55,565 nt of DNA, taken from contig NZ_JAGAXX010000053.1 in assembly GCF_017940815.1 (NCBI RefSeq), positions 1-55,565 on the forward strand, written 5' to 3'. The first letter of the stretch is position 1, and each line of letters opens with the position of its first letter. The DNA is from Methanobrevibacter sp. GTDB taxonomy: Archaea > Methanobacteriota > Methanobacteria > Methanobacteriales > Methanobacteriaceae. The translations under genes were made by a program, and so were the position numbers. The notes beneath the pieces are model-generated. The model did not search any database and had not been told where the DNA came from. It saw only the letters and a list, made by a program, of their open reading frames with translations. This document shows positions 48,393-51,637 of the stretch, piece by piece.

Positions 48393-48416
48393 CTAGATTA
48401 CTAGCTACTCTTTTTT
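48390..48416 (+). terminator. Hairpin terminator overlapping the nadA stop codon
   Basis: Seven-base stem TAGCTAG / CTAGCTA with an ATTA loop (48390-48407), followed by CTC and six T. The first TAG of the stem is the nadA stop. Confidence 0.75.
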
Positions 48417-49409
48417 ATTTTTTAAACTATCCATAAACAATTTCAAATCATCTTCAATTATTGAACAATCATCATAGTCCACACGGTCCTCTTTTGAATC
48501 AAAAATGACGACAGTTGCATTTTCTATCATGTTTTCCAACGGCAATACGTCAAATTCTGGAGTATAATACATATCATCGTCAGAACTAACGATTAACATT
48601 TCCGCCTTGATGTTTTTTAATTTATCCTCCAAATTATACTCTAAAACTGCCTCATTACGCAAATTGAAATCATAGATGTCTGTGAACAAACCTTCATCAA
48701 CATAATCATCCATCAAAACATCAATCTCCTCATTGGACATGTTTTGAAATATTTTTTTGGAAAATTGATTTGAATATAACAATTTGTTTATGGAAACCAT
48801 GATTCTGGATAATGAATCACTGTATAAATCTGAATAAAAATCGTCATTGGATTCTATAATGCTTTCCATACATTTGGAGACAACATAACGGTACCCATTT
48901 GTTTTATATGAACTTCCAGCAACCATTATGAAATCCATTTCATCAGGATACTCACAAGCCCAAGTGTATGCCTCATATCCTCCGACACCACGACTTATAA
49001 TTCCAAAAACATGATCTATCCCAAATCTTTCTTTTAGAAACTGCCTTTTGAAATTAACACGATCTTTCATAGTGTATTTTGGAAAATTGTGCTTAAGATT
49101 TGTGGTGGAAGGTGAACATGAATCAGGGAATCCCAAGGAAGTGATTGAAATAAAATAGTACTCGTTAAAATCCAAAGGTTTGCCTTCGGCAGTGAGCTTA
49201 TATAAATCATCTAAAGAGGAATAGTTACCATTAAATGTATGGCAATAAACAATTACATTAGTGATTTTTCCATCGTCATCAAATTTTGGAGTTCCTTTTG
49301 CGGAATATTCAACGACAACATCATTTAAAACTCTTCCAGACTCAAATTCAAACTCATCCAATGAGCATTTATCGTATCCAATGAAAAAATCGTTTGTAAT
49401 TCCCATCAT
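48405..49409 (-). CDS. MetX-like alpha/beta hydrolase homologue lacking catalytic Ser and His
   Basis: 334 residues, clearly paralogous to the protein encoded at 49790 along its whole length (for example CSPSTTNLKHNFPKYT and FLKERFGIDHV). At the nucleophile elbow the paralogue has IGNSMGG, while this protein has ISRGVGG, so serine is replaced by glycine. At the histidine position the paralogue has DSDLGHLCF and this one DSKEDRVDY. The aspartate region is kept. It is therefore probably a pseudoenzyme. The frame is intact over 1 kb and the ATG follows AAGGTGTG, so it is maintained, not decaying. It is the third gene of an operon with the active-looking paralogue and a small acidic protein. Confidence 0.85.
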   Translation of the reverse strand: MMGITNDFFIGYDKCSLDEFEFESGRVLNDVVVEYSAKGTPKFDDDGKITNVIVYCHTFNGNYSSLDDLYKLTAEGKPLDFNEYYFISITSLGFPDSCSPSTTNLKHNFPKYTMKDRVNFKRQFLKERFGIDHVFGIISRGVGGYEAYTWACEYPDEMDFIMVAGSSYKTNGYRYVVSKCMESIIESNDDFYSDLYSDSLSRIMVSINKLLYSNQFSKKIFQNMSNEEIDVLMDDYVDEGLFTDIYDFNLRNEAVLEYNLEDKLKNIKAEMLIVSSDDDMYYTPEFDVLPLENMIENATVVIFDSKEDRVDYDDCSIIEDDLKLFMDSLKNKKE

Positions 49410-49505: not shown

Positions 49506-49781
49506 TTACATATCTTCCAAAAAGCTTGATAAAAATACATTCATTTCAATTTCCTCACGTGCTATGAAATCATCAAGCCTAATTTTTGCAACATCACTTT
49601 GGAAAGGATACAAATCTTCATCAAAATAGCTTTTAATAAAAAGGGAGCCATCATCAATTCTTGTCTGTTCCTCTAAAGACTCTTTCAGAAAATCCAATTG
49701 ATCTTGAGACAATTCATCAACCTTATATTCAACAAAATATTTGTCCCCCTCATTGCCATAATCAATTATATTTACAATCAT
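49506..49781 (-). CDS. Small acidic protein between two hydrolase paralogues
   Basis: 91 residues, no signal peptide or membrane helix. It is acidic with a strand-helix layout (VNIIDYGNEGDKYFVEYKV, then QLDFLKESLEEQT). I do not recognise a family. The ATG follows AGGTGAT by three bases, and the ribosome binding site overlaps the stop of the upstream hydrolase gene (gap of eight bases). It probably acts together with the two hydrolases it lies between. Confidence 0.75.
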   Translation of the reverse strand: MIVNIIDYGNEGDKYFVEYKVDELSQDQLDFLKESLEEQTRIDDGSLFIKSYFDEDLYPFQSDVAKIRLDDFIAREEIEMNVFLSSFLEDM

Positions 49782-49789
49782 GAAATCAC

Positions 49790-50776
49790 CTAAAAATCAT
49801 CCATAAACTCATTCAATTCATCTGAAATATCTTCAAGCACGTTAAAGCACAAATGACCCAAATCAGAATCCATTATGATTAATTGAGCATCACGTATCAT
49901 TTCAGACATTGGAATTCCGTCAAGTTCCGGAGGAAAATGAGGGTCCTGTTTGCAGGAAATGATTAAAACCTTAGATTTAATCTTGTCCAAGTCATCTTCA
50001 ACGTCATAATTCATGCAGGATTCGTTGCAATATTTCAAGTCATAAATGTCAATTTCCATCATTTCATTGCCAAAACTTTCCAATTCAGCCGCAAGTTCAT
50101 CATTTGACATGTCCCTTAATGCCTTTTTAGAAAGTCCAAAATTGAATTCCGCCAAGTTTGCCAATCTTAAAGTCCTGAGCAATGAATAGGTCATTTCTCC
50201 TTTTGCATAATCCGGATCGGAGGTGATTATTTCATCCACAAATTTTGAAAGGACATAATCATGGCCTGCAACCTTATAACTGCTTACACCGACAATTAAA
50301 AAATCAGAAAAATCCAGATAATGAATGGCTGAAGTCAAGCTGACAAAACCGCCCATGGAGTTTCCAATCATTCCCAAAACATGATCAATATTGAATTTTT
50401 CCTTAAGGAATTGCTTTTGGAAATTGACAACATCCAAAATGGAATATTTTGGAAATTTGCTGTTCAAGTTTGTAGTTGATGGAGAGCATGAGCCAGGAGA
50501 GCCCAATGCAGTAAGGGAAATGAAAAAATATTTGTTTTCATCAAAGGCATCTCCCTCGCCAACCAACGGAGCAATTTTCTTCATTGATGAATAATTTCCA
50601 AGAGATCCATGACAGTATAAAACCGCATTTTTTATTATGCCGTTTTCATCATAAGCAGGAGTTCCAAAAGTCATATACTCAACCTGAACCCCATTTAAGA
50701 CCTCACCATTTTCAAATTCAAATGAATCCATAGTGTAATATTCATTTTTTCCTTCAAAATACTCATCATCGTAAAT
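49790..50776 (-). CDS. MetX-like alpha/beta hydrolase with intact triad and probable ATT start
   Basis: 328 residues if begun at the ATT 50776. It resembles homoserine O-acetyltransferase-type hydrolases: VEYMTFGTPAYDENG, YCHGSLGNYSS, then the nucleophile elbow IGNSMGGFVS (about residue 140), an aspartate in SCKQDPHFPPELDG and the histidine in DSDLGHLCF. The first ATG (50731) has no ribosome binding site. Upstream codons read DEYFEGKNEYYTMDSFEFENG, which aligns with NDFFIGYDKCSLDEFEFESG of the paralogue (each shown in full at no more than 20 residues or so), so the protein begins before the ATG. The only SD-placed codon is ATT, after GGAGGAATTTAT. The true acyl substrate is unknown; a real methionine-pathway role is not supported by neighbours. 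Confidence 0.82.
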   Translation of the reverse strand: MYDDEYFEGKNEYYTMDSFEFENGEVLNGVQVEYMTFGTPAYDENGIIKNAVLYCHGSLGNYSSMKKIAPLVGEGDAFDENKYFFISLTALGSPGSCSPSTTNLNSKFPKYSILDVVNFQKQFLKEKFNIDHVLGMIGNSMGGFVSLTSAIHYLDFSDFLIVGVSSYKVAGHDYVLSKFVDEIITSDPDYAKGEMTYSLLRTLRLANLAEFNFGLSKKALRDMSNDELAAELESFGNEMMEIDIYDLKYCNESCMNYDVEDDLDKIKSKVLIISCKQDPHFPPELDGIPMSEMIRDAQLIIMDSDLGHLCFNVLEDISDELNEFMDDF

Positions 50777-50788
50777 ATAAATTCCTCC
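50774..50788 (-). promoter_or_regulatory. Ribosome binding site and putative ATT start of the MetX-like hydrolase
   Basis: The minus strand reads GGAGGAATTTATATT, identical over 15 bases to 24498-24512. The in-frame ATT is 50776-50774. No ATG, GTG or TTG lies between the upstream in-frame TAA and the ATG at 50731. Confidence 0.65.
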
Positions 50789-50854
50789 GCATAAATTCTG
50801 TATATTCCTTTGAAAAACAAATTATTTAAATTAAACTAAACAATGTTTATTGTG

Positions 50855-51637
50855 ATGAAATATAAAATTTTAGAACACCCAAGTTGCGAAGATGCATATG
50901 ACCTCGTTCAGGACGCATTGAGAAAACGAGCAACAATAATGATGTTTGCATGCTGCAAAGTTAATTATGAAGGTCGTGCATTAAGTGAACTTAACTGGGG
51001 AGAACGCATAATTATGATTAAACCGGATGGTGCATTTTTAATCCATCAAGAAAAAAAAGTCGAACCGGTCAATTGGCAACCGCCGAAATCAAGAACCAGA
51101 ACATATATCAAAAATGAAAACCTTTTTTTAGAAAGCCACAGAAGAACACCTAAAGAGCTTTTAACCGCAGAGGTTAGAAAAATCCAGTTCATTAGTTATG
51201 CCAACATGGAAGACTTCGAAGAGCTCGAACAGGCAGGCTATGAAAAGGACATGAGCGACATGATTATGGAAAAGCCCCATCTCATTGAAGAAGGTTTCAC
51301 ACCTACCACACGAGAATACAGCGTAGAACATGGTTTTATCGACATACTTGGAAAAGATAAAGACAATAACCTGATGATACTGGAATTGAAAGCCCGTAAG
51401 GCAGGAGTTACTGCCGTGAAACAATTGAGAAGATACATTCAGGATATGGAAAATACCGAAAACGATTATCTAAGAGAAGTCAATGCTGAAAAGAAAAAGA
51501 TTAGAGGATTGCTTGTCGCACCATCAATAATGGATGATGCATTAGAGCTAATCGAAGAAGAAGGCATTGAATTTGTCTCAGTAGAACCTCCTCGTGAGTT
51601 AAAAAGAGATAAAAAGGTAACATTAGATGCATTTTAG
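50855..51637 (+). CDS. nucS: Endonuclease NucS (EndoMS)
   Basis: 260 residues from the ATG at 50855; ATG 50843 is an alternative. NucS/EndoMS cuts DNA at mismatches or at branched ends and in archaea works with the sliding clamp. The N-terminal DNA-binding domain shows YEGRALSELNWGERIIMIKPDG and PVNWQPPKSR (shown in parts). The C-terminal RecB-like nuclease has GFIDILGKD (catalytic Asp, about residue 160) and ILELKARK (Glu and Lys, about 178). Its end overlaps the convergent gene at 51634 by four bases. Confidence 0.94.
   Translation: MKYKILEHPSCEDAYDLVQDALRKRATIMMFACCKVNYEGRALSELNWGERIIMIKPDGAFLIHQEKKVEPVNWQPPKSRTRTYIKNENLFLESHRRTPKELLTAEVRKIQFISYANMEDFEELEQAGYEKDMSDMIMEKPHLIEEGFTPTTREYSVEHGFIDILGKDKDNNLMILELKARKAGVTAVKQLRRYIQDMENTENDYLREVNAEKKKIRGLLVAPSIMDDALELIEEEGIEFVSVEPPRELKRDKKVTLDAF

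Follow-up and report, generated by a model that had tools for sequence, protein, structure and literature searches.

An AUU Codon as the Likely and Conserved Translation Start of a MetX-Like Hydrolase Gene in Methanobrevibacter

Where does translation begin in a gene whose first in-frame ATG has no ribosome binding site and whose reading frame stays open upstream of that ATG? The question is raised by the gene for a MetX-like α/β-hydrolase on the minus strand of a contig of Methanobrevibacter sp. (NZ_JAGAXX010000053.1; the window, here the whole stretch of DNA that was analyzed, is 55,565 nucleotides long). Upstream of the ATG at 50731, the frame is open to a TAA without an ATG, GTG, or TTG. 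Read along the minus strand, the sequence GGAGGA (50788–50783) is followed by ATTTAT and then by an in-frame ATT (50776–50774), with 15 codons between the TAA and the ATT. This is the arrangement that the first-pass annotation described, with GGAGGA six bases before the ATT, and we find its account of the site to be accurate. As judged from the comparisons presented below, the most likely start of translation is the ATT at 50776–50774. The features of the start region are as follows.

49790..50776, minus strand: coding sequence of the MetX-like α/β-hydrolase, 328 amino acids from the AUU (presumably with Met as residue 1), the coordinates including the stop codon; an open frame to which the 57 orthologues align
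50774..50776, minus strand: putative AUU (ATT) start codon
50783..50788, minus strand: Shine–Dalgarno (SD) sequence GGAGGA
50732..50773, minus strand: predicted N-terminal extension YDDEYFEGKNEYYT, codons 2–15, with conserved protein columns
50729..50731, minus strand: first in-frame ATG, codon 16 and the choice of the ORF finder, probably an internal codon
50823..50830, minus strand: candidate TATA box TTTAAATA, read from the sequence

The candidate codons differ sharply in their predicted pairing with the anti-SD sequence of the 16S tail. The duplex energy is −8.4 kcal/mol for the ATT at 50776, −1.7 kcal/mol for a second in-frame ATT at 50782, and only −0.8 kcal/mol for the ATG at 50731, in keeping with the earlier assertion that this ATG has no ribosome binding site. 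An SD-type purine run is present in 54 of 55 orthologues, with a spacer of 6–8 nucleotides counted from the last SD base. A TATA-like word is found upstream in 53 of 55 orthologues, and from the candidate box we infer a transcription start near 50800 and hence a leader of about 24 nucleotides that holds the SD sequence; a search of Rfam revealed no known structured RNA in this leader. We also observed that the spacer between SD sequence and start is unusually constant, with T at −5 in 55 of 55 orthologues, T at −4 in 51, and A at −6 in 47, and that this constancy yields the second in-frame ATT (50782–50780) beside the SD sequence.

All 67 of the genomes of the genus that were searched have a match to the hydrolase family, most of them an intact orthologue, and N-termini were read from 57 orthologues with more than 65% identity. 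At the position of the codon at 50776, these orthologues have ATT in 50 cases, ATG in five, GTG in one, and ATC in one. Two more distant congeners (G002 and G007) likewise have ATG at this column. The first-pass annotation, which had inferred an AUU start from the DNA sequence alone, is thus upheld by the retention of ATT at exactly that codon in 50 of 57 orthologues, and the replacements by ATG (and once by GTG) at the same codon are of the kind that it predicted. In 13 of the ATT orthologues a stop codon directly precedes the ATT, and therefore nothing upstream can serve as the start. More broadly, in 37 of the 51 ATT or ATC orthologues an upstream in-frame stop is reached without an ATG, GTG, or TTG. 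The gene meets three sequence-based tests for a gene started at AUU: the lack of an upstream in-frame standard start, the spacing from the SD sequence, and the interchange with AUG or GUG among orthologues.

Is the ATT conserved as a start or merely as an isoleucine codon? In a codon alignment of 57 orthologues, from which two interrupted copies were excluded and in which G002 and G007 were included, ATT accounts for 50 of the 51 isoleucine-type codons (98%) at the start column, whereas at 18 other columns with at least 80% isoleucine it accounts for only 21%–86% of the isoleucine codons. The variants that are not isoleucine codons are start codons at the start column, whereas at the other isoleucine columns they are mostly valine or leucine codons. 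Because the same sequences and the same tree underlie both sets of columns, relatedness fails to explain the contrast.

The simplest competing view is that translation starts at the ATG at 50731 and that the upstream frame is a leader conserved for another reason. Standard gene callers would pick this ATG, and 43 of the 57 orthologues have ATG at codon 16. In the remaining 14, however, the codon is TTG (6), TTA (3), CTA (3), or CTT (2), and in most of the TTA, CTA, and CTT cases the next standard start lies at codons 25–34 (codon 25 in L008). The observation that would have refuted the AUU start, namely that all orthologues begin at the methionine of 50731, was accordingly not made. Moreover, the segment upstream of 50731 evolves as protein: for codons 2–15 the ratio pN/pS is 0.37, as compared to 0.22 over the remaining codons, and from these substitution patterns the extension is judged to evolve as a coding sequence under purifying selection. 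The extension is also retained in relatives outside the genus, where an ATG or TTG start can often be seen. Given that the ATG at 50731 lacks an SD sequence as well, we regard a start there as improbable, although the many orthologues with ATG at codon 16 leave room for a second, shorter product. One argument that had been offered for the extension did not survive: it was said to match the N-terminus of the tandem paralogue, but BLASTP aligns the two proteins only from about 50731 on (44% identity), and so no match of the extension to the N-terminus of the paralogue is detectable; the lengths alone are similar (15 versus 16 residues). The orthologues, by virtue of the inferred conservation and purifying selection, are better support for the extension than is the paralogue.

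Two other ways of accounting for the N-terminus fare worse. A start at the ATT at 50782 has in its favor that the codon is in frame and that A-T-T is common there among the orthologues, but it abuts the SD sequence, leaving no spacer, and it is contradicted by the stop codons that lie between 50782 and 50776 in 13 orthologues; we consider its chances negligible. Scarcely more credible is an N-terminus produced by an ATG in another frame (such as the ATGATG near 50769) and a frameshift, or simulated by an indel error in the assembly. Out-of-frame ATGs do occur in 52 of the 57 orthologues in this AT-rich stretch, but they are absent in five, and in 31 a stop within the stretch interrupts the shifted frame. 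Furthermore, variation of the synonymous type follows the gene's own frame, the species with ATG carry it at the ATT codon itself, and the start pattern recurs across dozens of independent assemblies, and we therefore rejected this explanation.

For the codon at 50776, parsimony on a quick protein tree requires six changes of codon state, or four if only changes between standard and near-cognate codons are counted, and the tree is weakly resolved, with strong support for ten of 54 inner branches. Because the orthologues are related, the 50 instances of ATT represent only a few independent events (the four to six changes). With that qualification, it looks as if the ancestor of the main Methanobrevibacter clade already had ATT and a few descendants went back to ATG or GTG. 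Taken as a whole, the best explanation would be a start at AUU 50776 behind a strong SD sequence, ancestral to the clade and one instance of a broader acceptance of AUU, AUC, and AUA (here, AUN) starts. We assign this reading a probability of about 0.92; comparative genomics shows where the start lies, that AUU is conserved, and that other genes have the same feature, in the absence of N-terminal peptide, ribosome-profiling, or reporter data.

The hydrolase gene is not the only gene in the genus that appears to have an AUN start. Comparison of 240 gene pairs between samples of about 400 kb each from G062 and G008 revealed three more genes with ATG in one genome and AUN behind an SD sequence in the other, and 30 orthologues were read for each. 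A methyltransferase-like gene (G062 C4:121606–122499; L150–L179) has ATC in 16, ATG in ten, ATT in one, ATA in one, and another codon in two, and its ATC forms stand behind very strong SD sequences. A gene for a DEDDh exonuclease (G062 C4:168809–169462; L180–L209) has ATT in 14, ATG in 12, and ATA in four, with an abutting stop in three of the ATT orthologues. Finally, a gene for a tadC-like membrane protein (G008 C1:451067–451966; L210–L239) has ATG in 20 and ATT in ten. The names of all three were assigned by reading, and membership in a methyltransferase family was not tested. Single sequences can be ambiguous, because the next codon or a codon within the SD sequence is sometimes also a standard start, but as aligned the start columns as wholes are not ambiguous. 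As regards the exonuclease gene, we note that the ATG forms tend to trail the upstream gene closely and to have a weak SD sequence and that a GGAGG or GGTGGG frequently precedes the ATT and ATA forms.

When the survey was extended to samples of about 400 kb from five genomes in all, two cases were gained. In G004 the exonuclease gene has an ATT directly preceded by TAA, and in G085, which has the code of another genus, a DUF89-like gene (named by reading) has ATT where TTG or GTG is found elsewhere (L303–L322). The sample from G007 contained no credible AUN case. Several survey pairs with unshared starts were dismissed as internal homology, antisense ORFs, or alignment slips, and one gene of G062 (A_-_296324), which has an odd AAA at the start column, was set aside. 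As a rough estimate, the rate of AUN starts is zero to three per 115–240 testable genes. Many of the genomes are metagenome assemblies; G004 and G008, which also show AUN starts, consist of one contig each, which suggests that they represent cultured strains.

AUN starts go together with strong SD sequences. Their mean duplex energy is −8.3 kcal/mol, with 95% at −6 or below, as compared to −3.9 kcal/mol and 28% for 111 ATG genes. Within families, too, SD pairing is stronger in the AUN forms than in the ATG forms (−11.0 versus −6.0, −7.2 versus −3.0, −8.9 versus −8.3, and −7.7 versus −5.9). These comparisons ignore relatedness, and the survey flagged candidates partly by the strength of the SD sequence.

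How might an AUU be used as a start? In the mechanism that we envision, the strong SD sequence (GGAGG), 6–7 bases upstream, would dock the 30S subunit and keep the AUU in the P site. There, Met-tRNAi is inferred to pair with the first two bases and to mismatch at the third. The protein would still begin with methionine, because Met-tRNAi would read the AUU despite the mismatch. The codon would have arisen in the ancestor of the main clade and have been retained since, with few reversions to AUG or GUG, in a lineage that may more widely tolerate AUU, AUC, and AUA starts when the SD sequence is strong. Initiation is proofread in archaea by aIF1 (PMC6237735). The aIF1 gene is present and intact, with ATG and an SD sequence in each of the 29 genomes for which we read its start, and hence neither loss of the factor nor autocontrol through the start codon of the infC type explains the tolerance. 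A non-AUG start of aIF1 itself, as an analogue of infC, was entertained and rejected: the apparently missing start in the window's own genome is a contig end, and the start is ATG in 29 others.

What the AUU does for the gene, if anything, is less certain. It may be kept, we infer, for lowered or aIF1-sensitive expression, and low or factor-sensitive expression from AUU is plausible, there being no expression data. A tentative generalization, which we rate as somewhat less likely than not, is a relaxed rule shared by Methanobrevibacter with one or more related genera, such that AUU, AUC, or AUA behind a strong SD sequence would be normal for about 1% of genes and some of these starts, including that of the hydrolase gene, would be kept by selection for translation that is weak and sensitive to initiation factors or initiator tRNA. 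Against a regulatory role, and with a chance that approaches one-half, stands the view that the AUU is merely a weak start that persists through drift. Other genes of the genus likewise alternate between AUN and ATG, and the strong SD sequences that accompany AUN starts could compensate fully; on the other hand, a single mutation would restore AUG, yet 50 of 57 species keep ATT.

An AUU start is rare in prokaryotes. Across 36 groups of prokaryotic genomes, a single switch to AUU was counted for 61,358 starts that were ancestrally AUG (Belinky et al., PMC5622118), and the conserved AUU described here is accordingly far from background. Archaeal translation is described in a review as using AUG, GUG, and UUG starts (PMC7531240). 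In Escherichia coli, infC, which encodes IF3, has an AUU start with translational autocontrol, and the expression of pcnB is limited by its AUU start (both cited in PMC1780047). The hydrolase gene resembles infC in having AUU behind an SD sequence, with only the third base different from AUG. However, the product of infC is the discriminating factor itself, and the gene is autoregulated, whereas here the AUU gene encodes an archaeal MetX-like hydrolase rather than a fidelity factor, failing the test of an infC-type system, and aIF1 has an ATG start. The likeness to pcnB is that of an ordinary enzyme gene with AUU and presumed low expression, for which we have no data; the difference is that here AUU is conserved genus-wide and the trait is common to other genes. 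The nearest archaeal precedent is the atubA tubulin gene of the Asgard Kariarchaeaceae, for which a likely ATT start was deduced from an N-terminal alignment and a plausible ribosome binding site (PMC13394414). It too is an archaeal ATT start by inference, but it is a single case in one archaeon, as opposed to 50 species and several genes. Beyond these bacterial examples and the inferred Asgard one, full-text searches, which leave most subscription papers uncovered, yielded no account of an AUU start conserved across a genus, and none of AUU starts in Methanobrevibacter. The start-codon rules of Methanobrevibacter thus seem less strict than those on which textbooks and gene finders rely, and the conserved AUU together with the other AUU, AUC, and AUA genes implies that N-termini are miscalled in these gut methanogens. 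With these genes, nature supplies a set of cases in which to study how the stringency of start-codon selection depends on archaeal aIF1, on aIF2, and on the SD sequence.

The hydrolase itself matches Pfam Abhydrolase_1 (E 4.7e-9), MetX_acetyl (108 bits), and PRK06489 (156 bits). It belongs by profile to the same α/β-hydrolase family as MetX and the MetX-like esterases, and a triad of S140, D278, and H308, with roles assigned by motif and not by structure, is invariant in the 57 orthologues. In contrast to MetX, it falls far below all NCBIfam MetX cut-offs, including that of TIGR01392 for MetX homoserine O-acetyltransferase (108.4 bits against a cut-off of 500). Another, more distant relative, an open frame of 488 amino acids, is found elsewhere in the same genome. 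The neighboring genes are as follows.

49506..49781, minus strand: downstream DUF5750 gene with an ATG start (Pfam PF19024, E 1.7e-33) and a strong SD sequence (anti-SD −8.6)
48405..49409, minus strand: tandem paralogue with an ATG start, 44% identical, in which the triad's nucleophilic Ser and its His are replaced
50843..51637, plus strand: divergent gene for endonuclease NucS (NCBIfam PRK04247, 327 bits, above the cut-off)

Over an alignment of 312 residues the paralogue has glycine in place of the nucleophilic serine (ISRGVGG versus IGNSMGG) and is missing the catalytic histidine, and from these replacements we consider it probably a pseudoenzyme kept beside an active copy.

Finally, we note some irregular copies. 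In two genomes (G045:C9:19127–19988, L066, and G034:C17:58170–58947, L067) the orthologue, with ATG at the start column, is split across two frames, which reflects either a broken gene or an assembly error. In another (G025:C14:21692–22618), the paralogue beside the orthologue carries an internal TAA and is possibly a pseudogene.
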